Source of the DNA: Pseudomonadota bacterium
GTDB lineage: Bacteria; Pseudomonadota; Gammaproteobacteria; Burkholderiales; Thiobacillaceae
Length of the DNA: 64,000 bases
Assembly (NCBI GenBank): GCA_021802555.1
Contig: JAJZRU010000007.1
Location: forward strand, 1 to 64,000
Direction: 5' to 3'
Shown: positions 9,324 through 35,996 of the stretch, piece after piece
Numbering within the stretch: the first letter of the stretch is position 1
Layout of the letters: every line of letters begins with the position of its first letter
Position numbers and translations under genes: made by a program
The notes under the pieces: generated by a model
What the model was told of the DNA's origin: nothing
Database searches by the model: none
Seen by the model: only the letters and a program-made list of their open reading frames with translations

Positions 9324-9740
9324 TCAGGCGCTGGCCAGCGGGCGCGAGCCCGGACTTTTGGCCTGATTGCCGGCGGGTCCGTAGATGGGTTCCTCGGCGC
9401 CGGTGAAAATGCGCAACGCGCCTTCCACATGGCGCGTCAGGGCGGCCAGGATGACGCCATTTTCCAGATTGGCGCGCGCCGCGCGCGCGCCCAGTTCGCG
9501 CAGTTCCTGCCAGGCGGGGGAATTTTTTCGGTCGGGGGTGCCGAGGGCGCGGCGCGCGGTTTCGGTGCGGGCCAGGGCCGCGGCGAGGTGCGTTTTTTCC
9601 TCCGCCAGGGCGGGCAGGGCCGCAGTTTCGCCCGCCAGGAGCAGCTCGTGCTCCCGCGCCAGGAGATCCAGGAAGCGCCGCAACAGGCTCAATTCTTCTT
9701 CGAGGGTCTGTGCCAGGGAAGGGGTGCCGGAAACGGTCAT
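9324..9740 (-). CDS. flgN: FlgN-family export chaperone
   Basis: A 138-residue, mostly helical protein with the heptad-like LEEELSLLRRFLDLLAREHELL at the N-terminus and a C-terminal EEPIYGPAG segment, as in FlgN. FlgN keeps hook-filament junction proteins FlgK and FlgL soluble and delivers them to the export gate. It follows flgM and precedes csrA with two bases between genes, so flgM, flgN, csrA and fliW form one operon. A second FlgN-like gene lies next to flgK at 24409-24780. Confidence 0.82.
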   Translation of the reverse strand: MTVSGTPSLAQTLEEELSLLRRFLDLLAREHELLLAGETAALPALAEEKTHLAAALARTETARRALGTPDRKNSPAWQELRELGARAARANLENGVILAALTRHVEGALRIFTGAEEPIYGPAGNQAKSPGSRPLASA

Positions 9741-9748
9741 GACGGCTC

Positions 9749-10069
9749 TCAGGCGTCGGGGGGCGGAGCGGCTGCCAGAAGATCCAGATTATCCCGGATC
9801 AGGGAGCGGGCGATGAGTTTCTGGTTGACGGCATAAGTGCCCGCGGCGATGCTTTTCTTGAGCGCCGCCAGGCGCTCCGCGCTCGCCGCAGGCGCGGCAG
9901 CGCCGCTCGCCAGCAGGCGGGCCGCCTGGGACAGGGTGACGCTGTCGCGCGCCGGCGCCGCGCCCGCCGCCTTGGCGGGAGAGGGCGCTGCCGCGCCGGC
10001 GGCCCGGCCGCGGTTTTCCGCAACGGGGTCGGACGGCGCCACAGGAGAGCTGCTTTTCAGAGGGTCCAT
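9749..10069 (-). CDS. flgM: Anti-sigma-28 factor FlgM
   Basis: A 106-residue protein with a disordered Ala/Pro-rich N-terminal half and a C-terminal sigma-28-binding region (DSVTLSQAARLL, then ERLAALKKSIAAGTYAVNQKLIARSLI). FlgM holds sigma-28 (FliA) inactive until it is exported through the finished hook. FliA itself is not in the window, and I find no convincing sigma-28 or sigma-54 promoter in front of flgM. Confidence 0.88.
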   Translation of the reverse strand: MDPLKSSSPVAPSDPVAENRGRAAGAAAPSPAKAAGAAPARDSVTLSQAARLLASGAAAPAASAERLAALKKSIAAGTYAVNQKLIARSLIRDNLDLLAAAPPPDA

Positions 10070-10306: not shown

Positions 10307-10699
10307 TTGAAATTTCTGGTAGTCGATGATTTCCCCACCATGCGGCGCATCGTGCGCGGCCTGCTGATGCAGACCGGCTACGTCACCGGCAACATCGACG
10401 AGGCGGAGGATGGCGAGGAGGCTTTGCGCCGCATCCAGGCCGGCGGCATAGAGTTCGTGGTGACCGACTGGAACATGCCGCAGATGCAGGGCATCGATCT
10501 GCTGCGCCATATCCGCGCCTCCGACAATCCGGCCATCCGCAGCCTGCCGGTCTTGCTCATTACCGCGGAAGCCAAGAAGGAAAACATCCTGGCGGCCGCG
10601 CAGGCGGGCGTCAACGGCTATATCGTCAAGCCGTTCAACGCGCAGACGCTCAAAGAAAAACTCGACGCCATCATGGAAAGATTGGGGCATAACAAATGA
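10307..10699 (+). CDS. cheY: Chemotaxis response regulator CheY
   Basis: A 130-residue single-domain receiver. Key residues are present: acidic pair Asp7-Asp8, phospho-acceptor Asp54 (VVTDWNMP), Thr86 (LLITAEA) and Lys108 (VKPF). Phospho-CheY binds FliM and reverses or alters motor rotation; the FliM at 55159 has the matching N-terminal LSQEEVDALF peptide. The start is TTG at 10307 with GCGAGG upstream; no ATG is available before the first strand. Its stop overlaps the cheZ start. Confidence 0.95.
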
Positions 10700-11196
10700 C
10701 GCTCTCTTGCACTCAGGAGGATGCCCTGCGCCAGCTGCAAGAGGCCGATGCCATGCTGCGGGAAGGGGTGCGGCGCATCATGTCCGCGTCGTCCGATCTC
10801 CCCACCGCCAGCCACCCGCTGGAAGAGGCCCTCCGGCTCACCGAGAAACAGGCCATGGCCACGCTGGAAGCGGTGGAAGGCGCCTTCGTCGAGCTGGAAG
10901 CGATCCGCGCCATGCGCGGCGGCTTCATAGACGGTCATCTCGATGCCCTGGAAAGCCAGCTGCACACGATCTTGGCGAGCCAGCAAGGCCAGGATCTGGC
11001 AGGCCAGCGGCTCAAGAAAGCCATCAGCCTGCTGCAGGCGGTGGAGGACCGCATCGGCGGCGCGCTCGGCGAACTGGGCATCGACGACATCGAGCCCTTG
11101 CACGCAGCAGGCAAGCAGATGGCGGCGATCGAGGACGATGGCGGGCCGATCGGCCAGGACGACGTGGATGCCTTGCTGAAGGAGCTGGGAATCTGA
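10696..11196 (+). CDS. cheZ: Protein phosphatase CheZ
   Basis: A 166-residue helical protein that dephosphorylates CheY. The catalytic segment is GQDLAGQ, matching DLTGQ of E. coli CheZ, with Asp100 and the catalytic Gln104 conserved. The C-terminal [14 protein letters not shown] is the CheY-docking helix. It is shorter than the roughly 210 residues of E. coli CheZ. It overlaps both cheY (ATGA) and cheA (TGATG), so the three are translated together. Confidence 0.92.
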
Positions 11197-13064
11197 TGGA
11201 TAACGACATACTCCAGGAGTTTCTTGCCGAATCCCGCGAAATGCTGAGCCAGGCCCAGGCCGATTTGCTGGGGCTGGAAAACGACCCGGGGAACGCTGAA
11301 ATCCTCGGCTCCATATTCCGCGCCTTCCATACCCTCAAGGGCGGCGCAGGCTTTCTCGATGCCCAGAGCCTGGTGGATTGGTGCCACGGCCTGGAGGATT
11401 TGCTGGACAAGGCGCGCCACGGCGAGGTCCCCGTGACCAGCCGCATGGTGGACGTCATTCTGCGCGGCACCGACGTCATCGGGTCCATGCTCGATGTCAT
11501 GGCCATGGGCGAATACCCCGAGCCCGGCCCCGCCGACCTCAAGGCCGTGATCCATGCACTTGCCGACGGCGAAGAAGGCGAGGACGCGGCGCCGCCCGCG
11601 CCGGAACCTCCGGCCGGCCGCCCGGAGGACTCGCTGTGGGTGTCGCGGCGCCCGACGGCGCAGGGCGCCGAGGGCGTCTACGTCGAACAGCGCGGCGCGG
11701 CGGCGGCACCGGGCCCGGCAGGCGAGGAAATCTCGCAGGACGAATTCGAGCGCTATCTGGATCAGTTGTACGGCGCCGGCGGCGCGCCCGGAGTGAACGG
11801 TGCCGCGCCGCCCACCGCATCGGCCGCGCATGCCGAGCCTACGGCGGCGCCCAAGGCGGCGCGCCCGGCCGCTGCACCGGCCCCGGCCATGAGCAGCGAG
11901 AGCCGCGAGGAAAGCACCATACGCGTGGATTCCAGCCGCCTGGACGCGGTGATGAACCAGGTGGGGGAGTTGGTCCTGCTGCGCAACCGCCTCAATGCCG
12001 CGCTGGCCAATCTGACCCAGGAAGACGAGAACCTCACGCGCATCGCGCGCGAGGCGGATTTGGCGGTGAACGATCTGCAGGCCACCGTCATGCGCCTGCG
12101 CATGCAGCCCTGCAAGCGCCTGTTCCAGGCGCTGCCGCGCGTGGTGCGCGACACTTCGCGCAGCCTGGGCAAGAACGTGCAGCTGGAGCTGGAAGGCGAA
12201 GACGTGGAAATCGACAAGACGGTGGTCGACGCCCTGTCGCCCCCGCTCATCCACCTCGTGCGCAATGCCCTGGATCACGGCATAGAGGATCCGGCCGAGC
12301 GGCAGAAATTCGGCAAGGCGGAAAAAGCCGTGCTGCGGGTGGCCGCCGTGCATCTGGGCGACAAGGTGCAGATCCAAGTGTCCGACGACGGGCGCGGCAT
12401 GAACCCGCAGGCCATCCTCAAGTCCGCGGTCGCCAAGGGGGTGGTGAGCGCCGAGGAGGGCGCGCGCCTGTCCGAGCGCGAGATGCTGGACCTGATCTTC
12501 CTGCCGGGCTTTTCCACCAAGGAGGCGGTCACCGACATGTCCGGCCGCGGTGTGGGCATGGACGTCGTGCGCGAGACGGTGCGCAGCCTGCGCGGCCGCA
12601 TCGACGTACAGACCCGCCTCAATCAGGGCACTACCATCGTGCTCGAGCTGCCCTTGACCCTGGCGGTGCTGCCCGTGCTTTATTTCCGCCTGCGGCGCGA
12701 AACCTATGCGCTGCCGGTGGCCGCGATCGAGAATCTCATCGAAATCGATCCGCCCTGCCTGCATACCATTTCCGGCAAGCCCATGTATCAGGTAGGGCGC
12801 GACCGCGTGGTGCCTTATCTCGATCTGGGCCACATGCTGCAGTCCTCTCCCATCAGCACTGCGCACGAGGCGAGCGAGGGCATATTGACCGAGCACGGCC
12901 TGCTGGTGGTGTCCGAGGCGCTGGGCACGGAGGATTCCGTGGTCAAGCCGCTGGACATCGGCATGGAAAAGACCTGGTATCAGGGCGCCACCATTTCCGG
13001 CGGCGGGGATGTCGTGCTGATACTCGATGGCACGTCGGTCAGCAAAGTGCAGCGCAGGATCTGA
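11196..13064 (+). CDS. cheA: Chemotaxis histidine kinase CheA
   Basis: A 622-residue CheA. Hpt domain at residues 1-105 with phospho-acceptor His45 (AFHTLKGG). Then an acidic Pro/Ala-rich linker of about 130 residues, in which I see no recognisable P2 CheY-binding domain. Dimerisation region from about 240 (DAVMNQVGELVLLRNRL). Kinase domain with N box HLVRNALDHG, SDDGRGM and GRGVGMDVV. CheW-like domain at the C-terminus. ATG 11196 follows the overlapping cheZ stop. It is the only complete kinase in the window, so it probably serves the soluble receptor encoded at 14491. Confidence 0.96.
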   Translation: MDNDILQEFLAESREMLSQAQADLLGLENDPGNAEILGSIFRAFHTLKGGAGFLDAQSLVDWCHGLEDLLDKARHGEVPVTSRMVDVILRGTDVIGSMLDVMAMGEYPEPGPADLKAVIHALADGEEGEDAAPPAPEPPAGRPEDSLWVSRRPTAQGAEGVYVEQRGAAAAPGPAGEEISQDEFERYLDQLYGAGGAPGVNGAAPPTASAAHAEPTAAPKAARPAAAPAPAMSSESREESTIRVDSSRLDAVMNQVGELVLLRNRLNAALANLTQEDENLTRIAREADLAVNDLQATVMRLRMQPCKRLFQALPRVVRDTSRSLGKNVQLELEGEDVEIDKTVVDALSPPLIHLVRNALDHGIEDPAERQKFGKAEKAVLRVAAVHLGDKVQIQVSDDGRGMNPQAILKSAVAKGVVSAEEGARLSEREMLDLIFLPGFSTKEAVTDMSGRGVGMDVVRETVRSLRGRIDVQTRLNQGTTIVLELPLTLAVLPVLYFRLRRETYALPVAAIENLIEIDPPCLHTISGKPMYQVGRDRVVPYLDLGHMLQSSPISTAHEASEGILTEHGLLVVSEALGTEDSVVKPLDIGMEKTWYQGATISGGGDVVLILDGTSVSKVQRRI

Positions 13065-13067
13065 ATC

Positions 13068-13694
13068 ATGACGACGGAAAAAGAAAGGCAGTTGCGCCGC
13101 GACTTCATCGACATGGCGGACGCCACCAGCAGATTCCAGCTCGAGATCAAGCGCCGCCTGCGCGAAATCGACCGCAAGGCGCTCAATGCCCAGGTGCTGG
13201 TCAAGCGCCATGGCAAGGATCTGTCGGGCTACGGCGTGGTGGCGCAGTCTTTTCGCGAAGGCGCCGGCGCCATGCAGGAGGCGGTGGATACGGTGCAGGA
13301 AATCATCACGCCGCTCATGTCGGGGCGCCTGGATGACCTGCGCGCCGCATTGGAGCTGGAAACCCTCGAACGCACGCAGGACGGCATGCAGGGAGGCACT
13401 GCGGGGCGCTGCGGCGGACTGGAGTCGTACCACAACCGCCTGGAGGAGAGGCGCGACGTCAACGAGCACGAATTCCGGGAGATCGGCAACAGCCTGCTGA
13501 AAGCCCTGGAGCGTTTTGAAGAGGTCGTCACCGAGCTCGATTACGTAGTGGTCAACGGGCGCATCGAGGCGGCCCTGAAAAGCGGCTCGGCGGCGCCGCT
13601 GGCGCAGGTGTCCATGGATATGTACCGCGCGGTTTCCAGCGTGCGCGAGGTTTTGCGCGGCTATCGCGAGCAGATCGAGAGGGGGCTCAGATGA
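13068..13694 (+). CDS. Unrecognised chemotaxis-operon protein with two MCP-tip-like segments
   Basis: A 208-residue soluble, largely helical protein. I know no family name for it. Residues 38-66 (ALNAQVLVKRHG ... GYGVVAQSFREGA) align without gaps to the tip of the receptor encoded at 14491 ([12 protein letters not shown] ... [13 protein letters not shown]), with 12 identities in 29. A second tip-like segment lies at residues 160-190 (VVNGRIEAAL). Both are degenerate. There is no membrane segment or sensor domain. It starts 3 bases after cheA and its stop overlaps the ODP-like gene (ATGA). It may bridge or modulate the CheA/CheW/receptor lattice; that is inference. Confidence 0.75.
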   Translation: MTTEKERQLRRDFIDMADATSRFQLEIKRRLREIDRKALNAQVLVKRHGKDLSGYGVVAQSFREGAGAMQEAVDTVQEIITPLMSGRLDDLRAALELETLERTQDGMQGGTAGRCGGLESYHNRLEERRDVNEHEFREIGNSLLKALERFEEVVTELDYVVVNGRIEAALKSGSAAPLAQVSMDMYRAVSSVREVLRGYREQIERGLR

Positions 13695-14455
13695 AGGGGC
13701 AGCGCTTCTACAGCCAGGGTGACCACCACTGGTTCGTGCTTTTCGATCAGGGTGAGCAGCGCGTCGTCGACGCCAACGTCTATGCGCTTGCCGTGGGAGG
13801 GCAGACCATGCTCATGGATCCGGGTGGCGTGGAGATTTTCGATCGGGTGTTCACTGCCCTCTTGAGCGTGCTGCCGCCCAGTTCGGTGAAGGCGGCCCTG
13901 GTGAGCCATCAGGACCCCGATGTCGCCTCCAGCCTGCCGCTTTGGAGCGCTTGCGGTCCAGACATCCTCTGGCACGTACCCAAGCTGTGGGCAGGGTTCA
14001 TACGCCACTATGGCGCGCTGGAGGCGAATTTCCATGAAGTCCCCGACGAAGGCGGCGACATCGACTTCAACGGCAAGCGTATGGTGCTGGTGCCGGCGCA
14101 CTATCTGCATTCGCCCGCCAATTTCCACCTTTACGATCCCGCCGCCAGGATTTACTTCTCCGGGGACGTCGGCGCCGCGCTGCTGCCCCCCGGCCACGAC
14201 GCTTTCATCGATCGGCGCGAAGACGACAGCGCGCGCGCTTTCGATGCCCATATTCAGCACGCGGAATATTTCCATCGGCGCTGGATGTGTTCCATGGAAG
14301 CCAAGCGCGACTGGTGCGAGCGGGTGTCGAAGCTGGACATCGATTTTCTATGCCCCCAGCACGGGGCCATCTACACGGGCAAGAACGTCGGGCGGTTCCT
14401 CGACTGGTTTGCGGACCTGCCCGTGGGATACGGCAACTGGCAGCAGGGGCACTAA
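13691..14455 (+). CDS. ODP-like diiron oxygen/iron sensor for chemotaxis
   Basis: A 254-residue metallo-beta-lactamase-fold protein related to the diiron domain of flavodiiron proteins, without a flavodoxin domain. Probable ligands: His73, Asp75 and Asp77 (SHQDPD), His137 (VPAHYLH), Asp159 (FSGDVG) and His224 (CPQHGA). Compared with HxExDH of flavodiiron enzymes, Glu is Asp and the last His is Val78. This matches the oxygen-binding diiron proteins (ODP) shown in Treponema denticola to bind O2 and act on CheA through sensor-less cytoplasmic receptors. Here such a receptor is the next gene. The assignment rests on fold motifs and context. Confidence 0.78.
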
Positions 14456-14490
14456 TTATGGCTGGGAGACAGCGTAAGACGGAGGTGGTG

Positions 14491-15477
14491 ATGAGTGCTG
14501 AGTTGGCGGTGGAAGATAAGGCGGCGATGCAGGATGCGGCGCGCGAACGCGACGCCAAGGACAATCGCGGCGGACTGGTGGAGAAATTGCGCGAGGAGCG
14601 CGAAAAGCTGCTCAGCGCGGTGCTGGCGACAATCTCCGAAGGCGACGATCAGGCTTTGCGCGAGCTGGAGCCGGCCTGGGCCGACCGGCTCATGGCCGCG
14701 CGTGCGGCGCTCGCGGCGCAGCCTGGCGAGCCGGCGCCGGCTTTGGATGCCGATGCGCTGGCACAGGCCGGCGGCGACCTGCAGGCCCTGGTGGCGCGCA
14801 TGAGCGAAGGTGCAGCGGGCGTGGGGCAGACCATAACGCGCATACGCGGCATCGAGTCGCAGTTGCATCAGCTCGATGAAAATCTGGGCGAGACGCAGTC
14901 GTCGGTCCAGGCGGGCAACGAGGCGATGTCCACCGTGCTGGGCGAAGTTTCCGAAGTCATGGGCTTCATCCAGGGCACGGAAGAAAAGCTCGTGGGGTTC
15001 GTCGATTCGGTGCGCTCCGTGGAGCGGCTGACGGCGGGCATACGCGAGATCGCCCAGCAGACCAATCTGCTGGCCCTCAATGCCGCCATAGAGGCGGCGC
15101 GCGCGGGCGAGCACGGGCGCGGCTTCGCCGTGGTCGCCGACGAAGTGCGCAATCTGGCGCGCCGCACCGCCACGATCACCCAGGAGATCGAGAATCTCAC
15201 GCACAGCATACGCGGCGGCTCCCAGCAGGTGGGCGAGGAAATGCAGCGCGCCATAGAGCATATCGGGCGTGTGGACAATCTGGTCGGCGAAGCCTGCGAG
15301 TTCCTCGGCGTGACCAGCGGCACTTTGCAGAAGGTTCGCGACATCGCCGAGGCGCAGCTGCAGGGCGCCGCCGGAGCCTTGGAAGCGGTGCAGCCGGTGG
15401 GGCAGGAAATGAGCGAAGCGACGGCCGTGCTGCCGGAGATCGCCCAGCGCCTGCAGGCGCTTCAGCAGGCGGCATAA
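14491..15477 (+). CDS. Cytoplasmic methyl-accepting chemotaxis protein without sensor domain
   Basis: A 328-residue receptor with no membrane segment and no ligand domain. Residues 1-100 are a charged and Ala-rich helical region; the signalling hairpin follows, with the conserved tip at 185-225 ([18 protein letters not shown] ... [14 protein letters not shown]). Start: ATG 14491 has GGAGG at 14481-14485; an upstream ATG at 14458, three bases after the ODP-like stop, lacks such a site. The family is known to couple to ODP proteins that sense oxygen or iron for it. It is the last gene of the cheY operon; cheW, cheR and cheB are not in this operon. Confidence 0.9.
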
Positions 15478-21119: not shown

Positions 21120-22388
21120 TCAAATATATTGGAACAAGCTCAGCCCCTGCACCTTAGCATAAGCCGCCTCTGAAGCCTGCAAGGCCGTGAGGCTCTGCTG
21201 GTAGGCGGCGATGACCTGCGGATAGTTGATGTTGGTGAGCTTGGATTGCTGGGTCTGCAGTTGCAGGGTGAGGTTGGAATTCATGTTCTGCACCGCCTGC
21301 ACCTGCTGCAGGCGCGTGCCTATGACGGCCTGGGTGTTCAACAGCGTCGTCTGCGACTGATCCAGCCCGGAGATGGCGTTGGCGATGGCCTGGGCGCGCT
21401 GCGCGTTGGTGCCGGGCGCGGAGGCGTTCATGGAAAAGGCCTGCTGCAGATTCTGGAAGATCGTGAACAGGCTTTGCTTGCCGGCGGCGGCGACGGTGAA
21501 GGTGTCGCCCGCGGCGGGGGTGCCCTGCACCGGCACGTTCAGCACGGCGGTGCCGCCGCTGGAGGGGACGGTGATGCTCATCCCCGGCGTAAAGGTGCCG
21601 GAGGCGACGACGCCCGAGGCGCTCATGGCGCCGCCCGTGCCGCTGATGACCGTGTAGGTCTGCGTCCCCCCGCTGGCGGCGCTGCCGCTGAAGCTGATCT
21701 GGTACTGGGTTTGATCGACCACGAGCACCTGCTGCGCCAGTGAGGCATTGGCGACGCTGCCTGGGCCGGCCACCGCGCCGCCGGTGTTGGCGCCCGAGGC
21801 AGCGACGGTGTAGCTGCCGTTGCCGGCCGGGATGTCCATGAAGACCGCGTTGCCCGGGTCGCTTACCGCCGTCTGCAGCGAAGACCCGATCGTCACCTGG
21901 TTCTGGGCGCCGTCGCCGGAGTATTGCACCTGCCCATTGGGCAGCAGGGAGAAAGGCTGGGTCTGGTTCTTGCTGCCGGCGAACAGGTAGTTGCCCTGGC
22001 CGTCCTGGGTGTTGGCGTATTGCAGCAATTGCTGCAGATAGCCGCCCATGGCGCTGGCGGCGTTGTTGAGGTCCTGGCTGCTCACGGTGGCGTTGTTCAT
22101 TTGCAGAGCCAGGCTGCGCACCTGGTTGAGCAGGGTGCCGGCGCTTTGCAGCGTGGAGGATTCCAGTTGCAGCGCGTTCTGGGCGTTCTGGCCGTTTTGC
22201 TGATAGCTCGCCAGACGGTTGAGCTGGCCGGCAAGGCCGACCACTTGGGCGGAATCCACCGGATAGTCGGCCGGATTGGTGAGGCGGTTGCCGGTGGCGA
22301 GCTGCTGGCTCAGATTGCCGATGGTGGCCTGTTGGTTGAGCATGCCGGCGAGGCTGGCGGTGTAGAACTGCGACGTGCTGATGCGCAT
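21120..22388 (-). CDS. flgL: Hook-filament junction protein FlgL
   Basis: A 422-residue protein with the flagellin-like N-terminal helix (MRISTSQFYTASLAGML ... TGNRLTNPADYPVDSAQ) and C-terminal helix (NYPQVIAAYQQSLTALQAS). Between them a Gly/Ser/Thr-rich insertion (roughly residues 150-310) makes it longer than the 317-residue Salmonella FlgL. FlgL sits between FlgK and the filament. Ten bases separate it from flgK; the glycosyltransferase follows with overlap. Confidence 0.94.
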   Translation of the reverse strand: MRISTSQFYTASLAGMLNQQATIGNLSQQLATGNRLTNPADYPVDSAQVVGLAGQLNRLASYQQNGQNAQNALQLESSTLQSAGTLLNQVRSLALQMNNATVSSQDLNNAASAMGGYLQQLLQYANTQDGQGNYLFAGSKNQTQPFSLLPNGQVQYSGDGAQNQVTIGSSLQTAVSDPGNAVFMDIPAGNGSYTVAASGANTGGAVAGPGSVANASLAQQVLVVDQTQYQISFSGSAASGGTQTYTVISGTGGAMSASGVVASGTFTPGMSITVPSSGGTAVLNVPVQGTPAAGDTFTVAAAGKQSLFTIFQNLQQAFSMNASAPGTNAQRAQAIANAISGLDQSQTTLLNTQAVIGTRLQQVQAVQNMNSNLTLQLQTQQSKLTNINYPQVIAAYQQSLTALQASEAAYAKVQGLSLFQYI

Positions 22389-34303: not shown

Positions 34304-35383
34304 ATGACTCGGCTTTCCGGCAATCGCTCCCTGCTGCAGGCATTTCTGGCCGACGCGCAGCGCTATCTGGAAGAATATCGGCAAGCGCTCGCGTCCCCGG
34401 CTGCCGCGTCTGCGGATGCCGCTCTGGAGGCCGTGCGCGGCATCCGCATAGGCGCCGAATTCCTGGAAATCCTTCCTCTGGCCGGGCTTTGTCGGCAGCA
34501 GGAGAGCCGCTTGGCCAGGGCCGGCGGCGCGTTGCCGGAAGCCGTATTGGAGAGCTTGTCGCTCGCTGCCGGGGAGATCGACCTGCATCTGGCGGCGCTG
34601 GACGCACCAGAGGTGGGGGCGGCCGCGCCCGCTGCGGCGGCGCAAGTCGGGGTCGGCGGCACGAGCGGCGAGAGCGTTGCTCCGGCTGCCGCCGAGAATG
34701 AGGCGCAGGCGCCGGAGCCGCCGCCGGAACAGCCCATGCCTGACTTCGCCCCGAGGGAGCCGTCGGCCGCGGCGGCGCCGGCCGCCGAAATGTTTCAGGA
34801 ATGGATGCGCGAATGGCGTGCCTTCCGCGAACAGATCGAGCGCATATATCTCGCGGCCGGCCCCGCGCCGCCCGCAGCGCCATCCGAGCTTCGGATCGCA
34901 GAGGCGCTACCGGCGGAGCGTGCACCCGAGCCTGCGGCGCCTGTCGCCGGGCCGGCGCCGCAGGCCGCGCCCGCGGCGCAGACGATGGCCGTGCTCAAAC
35001 TCGGCATAGGGCCTGCCCTGGTCGGGCTGCCGGCGGCCAACGTTCTCGGCTTCGTCGAACCCACGCGCGACGTCAGGCGGCTGTCGGCCGACGGCGCCTT
35101 GGCGGCCGTCAATGGTTCGGCGCTGGCGGTATTGGACGTGCGCGGACGTTGGGGGCTGGGCGAACGCCCGGCAGATGCCCGCATTGTGCTGGTGGAAAGC
35201 GGGCGGGGCCGTATCGGGCTCTGGGCCGACAGGGTCTACGGCACGGAAAGCCTCAGCATCCAGCCATTGCTCCCCGCCGCCCTCCACCCGGCCGAATTGG
35301 GCGGTGCGGCGGTGAGCGCGCAAGGCGAGGTGGTGCTGATGTTGCGGCCGGAAGCCATCGCCGCGCCGGAGAATGTAGCGTGA
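34304..35383 (+). CDS. Kinase-less CheA-like protein: decayed Hpt plus CheW domain
   Basis: A 359-residue protein. Residues 1-85 resemble a CheA Hpt domain: AVRGIRIGAEF lines up with AFHTLKGGAGF of the CheA at 11196, but the phospho-accepting His is Arg45. An Ala/Pro-rich linker follows, with a short helical segment MFQEWMREWRAFREQIERIY. A CheW domain completes it (VLKLGIGPALVGLPAANVLGFVEP ... AVLDVRGRWGLG). There is no dimerisation or ATPase domain. It could link receptors in an array without signalling, or compete with CheA or CheW. It is followed by a repeat element and a cheW-like gene. Confidence 0.78.
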   Translation: MTRLSGNRSLLQAFLADAQRYLEEYRQALASPAAASADAALEAVRGIRIGAEFLEILPLAGLCRQQESRLARAGGALPEAVLESLSLAAGEIDLHLAALDAPEVGAAAPAAAAQVGVGGTSGESVAPAAAENEAQAPEPPPEQPMPDFAPREPSAAAAPAAEMFQEWMREWRAFREQIERIYLAAGPAPPAAPSELRIAEALPAERAPEPAAPVAGPAPQAAPAAQTMAVLKLGIGPALVGLPAANVLGFVEPTRDVRRLSADGALAAVNGSALAVLDVRGRWGLGERPADARIVLVESGRGRIGLWADRVYGTESLSIQPLLPAALHPAELGGAAVSAQGEVVLMLRPEAIAAPENVA

Positions 35384-35387
35384 GCCC

Positions 35388-35541
35388 GAAAACCGTTTTT
35401 GGACCACAGAGCCACAGAGACACGGAGGAAAAGACAAAGACTTGCGTCGCAGCGGCCGGTCACCCGTCGGGCGAACGGTCAAGTGCTGACATGCTGTTGA
35501 TGTCTTGCATTTCTCTGCGCTTCTGTGTCTCTGTGGTGAGG
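35388..35541. repeat. Dispersed inverted-repeat element, copy 2
   Basis: Second copy of the element at 8375-8518. Terminal inverted repeats are ACCACAGAG ... (from 35403) and ... CTCTGTGGT (to 35537), pairing over about 25 bases with several mismatches. The core keeps GACTTGCGTCGCA and CGGTCAAGTGCTGA. It fills the gap between the kinase-less CheA-like gene and the cheW-like gene. Its right end supplies GAGG at 35538-35541, eight bases before the ATG at 35550, so the element has probably provided the ribosome-binding site of that gene. Confidence 0.8.
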
Positions 35542-35549
35542 ATTTTAAG

Positions 35550-35996
35550 ATGAACTCGGCCGCGACGGACTGGTTGGCGTTCCTCCTGGGGGAGCAGCGC
35601 TGGGTCTTGGCCGCGGGCGCCGTACGTCAGGTGATGCGCCTGCCGCCGCTGGCCCCGGTGCCTGGCGCCCGCCCGCCCTGCATGGGCATGATCGCCTGGC
35701 AGGGGCGTCCGGTCACGGTGCTGGATGCGGCGCTCTGGCTGGCGCAGGGCGGCGCGCGCGAGGCCCGGCAGGAGCGCCTGGTGATCTGGGCGCAGGGTGG
35801 CGATGCACTGGGCTTGCGCGTGGACGCTGTGCTGAGCCTGCGGCGCTTGCCGCCTTCTGCGGTGCTGCCTTTGCAGGCCGCGCTGCCGCCGCCATGGAAT
35901 GCCGTCGCCGGGCTGCTGCGTCAAGGCGACGACGTCGATCCCATCCTGGAACCCGCCGCGCTGCTGGCTGCGGCGCAAAGAGCGTCGGAGGGCTGA
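35550..35996 (+). CDS. CheW-like coupling protein
   Basis: A 148-residue protein made of a single CheW domain: WLAFLLGEQRWVLAAGAVRQVMRLPPLAPVPGARP, then GMIAWQGRPVTVLDAALWL and LGLRVDAVLSLRRL. CheW proteins couple receptors to CheA. It lies in a module without a kinase, so it may instead serve the CheA at 11196, for which no other cheW is visible in the window, or work with the degenerate receptor that follows. Start ATG 35550 is preceded by GAGG from the repeat element. Confidence 0.82.
   Translation: MNSAATDWLAFLLGEQRWVLAAGAVRQVMRLPPLAPVPGARPPCMGMIAWQGRPVTVLDAALWLAQGGAREARQERLVIWAQGGDALGLRVDAVLSLRRLPPSAVLPLQAALPPPWNAVAGLLRQGDDVDPILEPAALLAAAQRASEG

Follow-up and report, generated by a model that had tools for sequence, protein, structure and literature searches.

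What is the 208-aa protein encoded between cheA and the gene of an oxygen-binding diiron protein (ODP) in this stretch of 64,000 nucleotides (the window), and how might it act in chemotaxis? The initial annotation had noticed two segments in it that resemble the tip of a chemoreceptor (MCP). We refer to the protein as X. Its open reading frame (13068-13694, + strand) occupies the fourth place in the gene order cheY, cheZ, cheA, X, ODP, soluble MCP. X starts 3 nt past the stop codon of cheA, and its TGA overlaps the ATG of the ODP gene. The features of the locus are as follows:

10307..10699, + strand: CheY-type response regulator (PF00072, E 2.2e-28)
10696..11196, + strand: CheZ (PF04344, E 1.5e-11)
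11196..13064, + strand: CheA, with Hpt, dimerisation, HATPase and CheW-like domains
13068..13694, + strand: X, putative single-chain double-tip MCP-like protein, 208 aa, soluble (profiles, predicted fold, hydropathy)
13158..13265, + strand: tip 1 of X, residues 31-66 (probability 98.0%, E 2e-13)
13389..13400, + strand: predicted loop of X, residues 108-111, linking the two hairpins opposite the tip end (DSSP of the model)
13533..13625, + strand: tip 2 of X, residues 156-186 (probability 95.7%, E 8.7e-9)
13691..14455, + strand: ODP, oxygen-binding diiron protein with a metallo-beta-lactamase fold (PF19583, E 2.9e-61; PDB 6qrq, E 4.4e-52)
14458..15477, + strand: soluble MCP with a canonical tip, 339 aa (PF00015, E 5.9e-32; maximum KD19 0.77)

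We observed no hydrophobic segment in X (highest 19-residue KD mean 0.66), and hydropathy did not reveal a likely transmembrane segment in the soluble MCP at 14458-15477 (maximum KD19 0.77). Open reading frames that by eye resemble FlgN, FlgM and FlgL (9324-9740, 9749-10069 and 21120-22388 (-)) adjoin the che cluster, which suggests that this is a flagellar locus. The window also contains two CheW-domain genes, at 34304-35383 and 35505-35996. The first encodes a long N-terminal Ala/Pro-rich part, and we assume that it might be ParP-like.

We compared a superfamily profile of X (A3, 25 rows) with a profile of 60 MCP regions taken from the fetched loci. This profile-profile alignment, which had been proposed as the check for MCP similarity, matched both segments to the MCP profile (tip 1, probability 98.0%, E 2e-13; tip 2, probability 95.7%, E 8.7e-9). 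Both tips fell in one register, with the MCP N381 column on N40 in tip 1 and on N163 in tip 2. Every control scored lower, whether the columns had been reversed, shuffled freely (150 times) or shuffled within heptad classes (150 times), and the stretch from tip 1 to tip 2 reached a probability of 0.14%. Chance and coiled-coil composition were ruled out by these controls as the source of the tip similarity. The maxima of the heptad-class shuffles (35.2 and 24.6, with 67.6 and 44.4 observed) lay above those of the plain shuffles, so part of the tip signal is generic amphipathicity. When the superfamily profile was run against PDB sequences, the 13 best matches were all chemoreceptors (E 6e-14 to 4e-7), and the next was a designed coiled coil (E 5e-5). 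The likeness of tip 1 to tip 2 was only moderate (probability 38%).

The ungapped identity of 12 in 29 positions that had been reported between residues 38-66 and the tip of the adjoining receptor proved exact, and its BLOSUM score of 45 exceeded all 300 shuffles of the N half (maximum 37). The Pfam model MCPsignal (PF00015) matched residues 38-87 of the window protein (E 0.0052) at 17.1 bits, below its gathering score of 34.6 bits. At E<=1 this model matched 29 of 30 aligned relatives, with a best E of 9.9e-8, and one of eight distant relatives scanned passed the cut-off (L126, 35.0). MCP was the only function-related Pfam or NCBIfam model found in the scanned X proteins, below the cut-off except in L126.

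Tip 2 did not rise above chance in the window protein alone, where 26 of 300 shuffles scored as high. In tests of single sequences against an MCP HMM, each half of 38 relatives was set against 200 of its own shuffles; 37 of the 38 N halves outscored all of these, whereas only 3 of the 38 C halves did. A first hhalign run with the 30-member alignment gave tip 2 a probability of only 0.8%, in the correct register. The family profile of tip 2, built from 38 members, scored 23.0, and none of 200 column shuffles scored as high. The proposal of two MCP-tip segments therefore holds at the level of family profiles for both, and for tip 2 it is insignificant in the window protein by itself. On the evidence of these profiles, both segments are real MCP tips. 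The tips were also the conserved part of X, with mean majority-residue fractions of 0.96 for tip 1 (alignment A1) and 0.85 for tip 2, compared to 0.53 for residues 96-145. Only three columns of A3 were invariant: N and A in tip 1, and E in tip 2, where residues 163-170 of X read NGRIEAAL.

A link between X and the ODP-like sensor had likewise been proposed, and the gene neighbourhoods agree with it. We counted duplicate loci once, which reduced 89 loci to 62 distinct X genes (L092 and L060 are one gene; the fragment L036 and the broken L132 are excluded). ODP lay within 41 nt downstream of X in 59 of 61 distinct genes, L034 being left out at a contig end. When the 12 X genes found through ODP were set aside, ODP still followed in 47 of 49 assessable genes, and the two exceptions were the paralogues L032 and L033. 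The two genes most often overlapped by 4 nt (29/59), where a script took the closest ATG as the start. No feature of the X family is more constant than its pairing with ODP.

We also approached the pair from the ODP side. PF19583 was matched in 135 of 274 class genomes at E<=0.001 (113 above the cut-off). Among 30 of the best ODP loci, X lay directly upstream in 12 of the 13 with the most window-like ODPs (phmmer E below 1e-57; L086 was without X) and in 0 of the 17 others (E above 1e-49). The window ODP matched the crystallised oxygen-binding diiron proteins 6qrq (E 4.4e-52) and 6qnm in the PDB, and retained the HQDPD, LHS, SGD and PQHG motifs in alignment. No fusion of ODP to X was found among seven loci chosen for long ODP frames. 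In L119, L120 and L121, ODP was followed in the same frame by what appears by eye to be a C-terminal GGDEF domain, which suggests that ODP outputs differ between branches.

A scan of genome contigs yielded 36 X loci, in which the named isolates were Thiomonas species and Tibeticola sediminis, and the others were metagenome bins. X is patchy within the sample of the window's own family: it was present in two of 61 genomes near the window's, the window genome itself (G000) and G001, which carries two copies. The match in a third genome, G027, was an MCP and was dropped from the count. With profile A1, which comprises 30 X members, we observed X in 6 of 399 genomes of the order, the window's included. 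In the class, 11 of 369 genomes were matched and four had a true X, again with the window's included; the other seven matches were six MCPs and one other protein, which we take to be an MlaD/MCE protein. The phylum search matched 329 of 398 genomes, with most listed matches in MCP-sized frames. The loci inspected, taken from 30, were L126-L130, L132 and L147. Five of these (L126-L130) were further X genes; each belongs to the window's class or order and has ODP downstream of it. L147 was rejected as an MCP-like ORF. L132, from a genome outside the window's class, has an X-like sequence broken by one TAG directly upstream of ODP. Of the relatives added by the searches of the order and the class, three were 35-37% and five 18-21% identical to window X. 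Most X-ODP pairs seen so far come from the window's class, which is probably Gammaproteobacteria as GTDB defines it, with the betaproteobacteria included.

Paralogues of X were seen in metagenome bins (L032:472-1077, L033:2147-2758 and the fragment L036) that also hold an ODP-linked copy (L013, L014). We did not see cheA near any of the three, and ODP was absent beside L032 and L033. Tip 2 of L032 and L033 is nearer the MCP consensus (NA.IEAALHG).

AlphaFold2 predicted a helical bundle for window X (pLDDT 86.8, pTM 0.80), with helices by DSSP at residues 4-107, 112-170 and 176-207. DSSP gave no helix break at tip 1, and confidence dipped near residue 50, the expected turn. The distant homologue L083 (pLDDT 94.3, pTM 0.86) was predicted as four separate helices at 9-48, 51-102, 106-163 and 166-203. 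Prediction of the protein alone, which had been suggested as a check on the fold, thus gave four separate helices in L083 and an unbroken helix through tip 1 in window X. The description of the helices as short was apt, as those of L083, our best model, span 38-58 residues.

The best structural (VIA) matches were single-chain four-helix maquettes, for the window X model (Z 16.0, 2.9 A over 181 residues) as well as the L083 model (Z 17.5, 2.5 A over 175 residues); helical bundles often reach Z values of this size, which show the arrangement only and are weak evidence of fold. Foldseek against the PDB returned nothing below E 0.001; the MCP structure 2ch7 came 48th (E 0.23). The 50 VIA rows name no MCP signalling domain, an absence that says nothing because a single chain and a two-chain bundle are not directly comparable.

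The up-down-up-down order of the helices, together with the end-to-end structural alignments, places both predicted tips at one end. By sequence there are two tips per chain, and by prediction a single-chain bundle, unlike the homodimeric MCP with one hairpin per chain. On these models, a single X chain would form the equivalent of one MCP dimer tip and would not bridge two rings. This predicted topology speaks against the earlier suggestion that X could cross-link two CheA/CheW rings. The receptor DosM of Vibrio cholerae is described, in the available part of PMC7534058, as a rod with a signalling domain at each end that joins two baseplates. X is like DosM, as described there, in having two signalling domains in one cytoplasmic receptor, and differs from it in that both tips lie at one end by predicted topology.

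In the available part of PMC8144572, neighbouring dimers of a receptor trimer are described as joined by E385-R388' ionic locks and F396 stacking. We counted the corresponding residues in 55 distinct X genes, that number being the 62 less L006, L007, L008, L021, L023, L028 and the partial L034. The E385-type Glu was present in tip 2 of 55/55 and in tip 1 of 0/55. An R388-type Arg or Lys was present in tip 1 of 55/55 (Arg 52, Lys 3) and in tip 2 of only 7/55 (6 Arg, 1 Lys). The N381-type Asn occurred in all 55 first tips and in 40 of the 55 second tips; at the F396-type position, tip 1 had Tyr or Phe in 55/55 and tip 2 had Phe in 3/55. In window X, N40, R47, G49, G54 and Y55 of tip 1 correspond to MCP N381, R388, G390, G395 and F396, with L44 in place of E385. 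In its tip 2, N163 and E167 correspond to N381 and E385, with L170 in place of R388. The MCP reference set of 60 was chosen by the canonical tip motif, and its uniformity in residue counts is by construction. Tip 2 had been called decayed; with its Glu invariant in 55/55, it looks specialised rather than decayed.

The subunits of a receptor dimer are placed unlike each other according to the accessible text of PMC4692393: one lies at the trimer axis, and its partner lies at the periphery, where it faces CheA/CheW. Judged from its residues, X appears to have this dimer asymmetry fixed in its sequence. With E385 missing from tip 1 and R388 mostly missing from tip 2, the normal trimer contacts may be lost in X.

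Tip homology, predicted fold, gene pairing, residue split and the presence of CheA in all X genomes tested are the computed results. We think it fairly probable that X is a soluble single-chain MCP-tip pseudo-dimer and the dedicated output partner of ODP in CheA/CheW arrays, and we infer X-ODP binding, array entry, orientation and signalling as follows. The two hairpins would pack as one four-helix bundle with the tips at the same end, and would mimic a single MCP dimer that lacks the sensor, membrane and methylation regions. ODP would bind X, probably at a non-tip part, and the oxygen or iron state of ODP would alter the bundle. Because conservation sits at the tip end, a conserved ODP site elsewhere on X is not visible. 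The tips would sit within the CheA/CheW array and would most likely share trimers with MCPs, for example the adjoining soluble one. X would take one receptor-dimer position, probably in a single orientation only, since the two tips retain different halves of the E385-R388' trimer contact; one tip would point toward the trimer axis and the other toward CheA/CheW.

The predicted helices of X (38-58 residues) would not be long enough to hold a methylation region. The window genome (99.99% complete) has CheA, CheZ and CheY, and we found no match to CheR or CheB in it. It has three MCP genes besides X (14458-15477; L043:1021-2268; L041:1396-3516). By hydropathy, a transmembrane segment is likely in just one of the three products, which by eye resembles PilJ; the other two are soluble, and one of these carries a CZB domain and matches PAS weakly. 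The genome has seven CheW-domain matches, two of them within CheA-type frames. L045 and L046 look like CheV, from a CheW-domain match and a receiver seen by eye. The lack of CheB and CheR matches, together with a likely transmembrane segment in one of three MCPs, suggests that the flagellar arrays of this genome may be wholly cytosolic and without methylation.

The same tips could serve to end an array. As a cap or decoy, X would bind CheA/CheW through its altered tips without forming trimers, array growth would be ended or inhibited, and ODP would release or recruit X. Such a role would suit the lack of the E385-type Glu in tip 1 (55/55) and of the basic R388 residue in tip 2 (48/55), as well as the absence of space for a methylation region and of CheR and CheB matches in the window genome. 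However, the remaining tip residues are invariant or nearly so, which suggests that a specific contact is retained, and a sensor partner points to signalling. We regard a cap or decoy as unlikely.

We observed cheA upstream of X in 33 of the 36 genome-contig loci. The gene was present in all 27 X genomes tested, which comprise every G-numbered genome with an intact X, and in 115 of 185 class genomes, some of those 27 among them; related genomes in these counts are not independent. MCP genes were close by in most close-family X loci. At the second X-ODP pair of G001 (L040, L076) there was no cheA within 13 kb, and an MCP follows. Several distant X-ODP pairs lay in che clusters (L072-L075, L115). 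We did not detect MCP or che relatives in the regions of the X-ODP pairs L107, L110 and L116. The locus in these cases does not name the target array, which counts against a role of X as the ODP partner in CheA/CheW arrays. The paralogues L032 and L033 and the fragment L036, with no cheA close to them, and the patchy distribution of X also weigh against that role. The neighbourhood listing favours the longest ORFs, and true genes may be hidden in the high-GC loci L108, L109 and L111.

The position of cheA, directly upstream in the window and ahead of X in most loci, would also be consistent with arrays or homotrimers of X alone, formed with CheA/CheW around ODP and independent of MCPs. The lock residues sit on different tips, and an X-X contact from tip 1 to tip 2 is conceivable. 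Yet only one subunit per dimer faces the axis in the account available from PMC4692393, so a symmetric X trimer would be without the lock. MCP genes near most close-family loci and several distant pairs without cheA nearby also argue against arrays of pure X, which we consider improbable. We likewise see little chance that X is a mere docking scaffold or stabiliser of ODP with relic tips and no array role, as the tip motifs are conserved and the rest is not (0.96 and 0.85 vs 0.53 for residues 96-145) and cheA is present in every X genome tested, even though the constant pairing, the overlapping genes and the L107, L110 and L116 pairs in surroundings without che genes would fit it.

The role that we favour for X, an MCP-like output partner of ODP, has partial precedents. 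X resembles the MCP (PF00015) dimer tip in its helix-turn-helix tips, in its N381, E385, R388, G390, G395 and F396-type positions and in its predicted four-helix bundle. It differs in that one chain gives both hairpins and the contact residues are divided between the tips. In the available part of PMC7666581, the ODP of Treponema denticola (TDE2498) is described as sensing oxygen and as genetically coupled to TDE2496, a homologue of MCPs that lacks membrane and sensing modules and is able to modulate CheA. The X gene adjoins that of ODP, and X has no membrane or sensing module, as in TDE2496-type receptors, so that on this description both systems couple an ODP gene to such a receptor. Unlike TDE2496, which is an MCP homologue by that description, X is a two-hairpin single chain below the Pfam cut-off.

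The statement that no family of this design had been described was too strong. The accessible text of PMC4692393 mentions soluble single-chain MCP signalling domains that occur naturally in Rhodospirillum centenum and others, with no function assigned to them. These resemble X in having two MCP signalling hairpins in one soluble chain; compared by description alone, X differs in its asymmetric tips and its ODP partner, which are absent from what that text says of them. The same text describes an engineered single-chain Tsr-Tsr, with two receptor subunits in one chain, as functional in chemotaxis (PMC4692393). In contrast to X, Tsr-Tsr as described is artificial, full-length and membrane-bound, and both of its subunits come from one receptor. 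Our literature search, which covered titles, abstract openings and few subscription papers, found no earlier account of X with ODP. Natural single-chain MCP domains are thus already known, and what is new in X is that it is short, asymmetric and ODP-coupled.

More tentatively, X-ODP could represent a widespread two-gene receptor class, with an asymmetric pre-assembled tip in which one hairpin serves the trimer axis and the other CheA/CheW, and with a cytosolic diiron protein that exerts control in trans. If this is true, X-ODP would be a natural asymmetric single-chain receptor that parts the two roles of one MCP sequence. In an MCP dimer the same residues serve the trimer axis and the CheA/CheW sides, so the roles are hard to separate; by the available text of PMC4692393, a single-chain Tsr was constructed as a potential means of separating the two subunit roles. 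X looks like a natural separation of these roles, with the Glu confined to tip 2 in 55/55. It suggests a way in which a soluble O2/iron sensor could couple to chemotaxis without receptor fusion, and X would give one ODP branch a defined protein partner.
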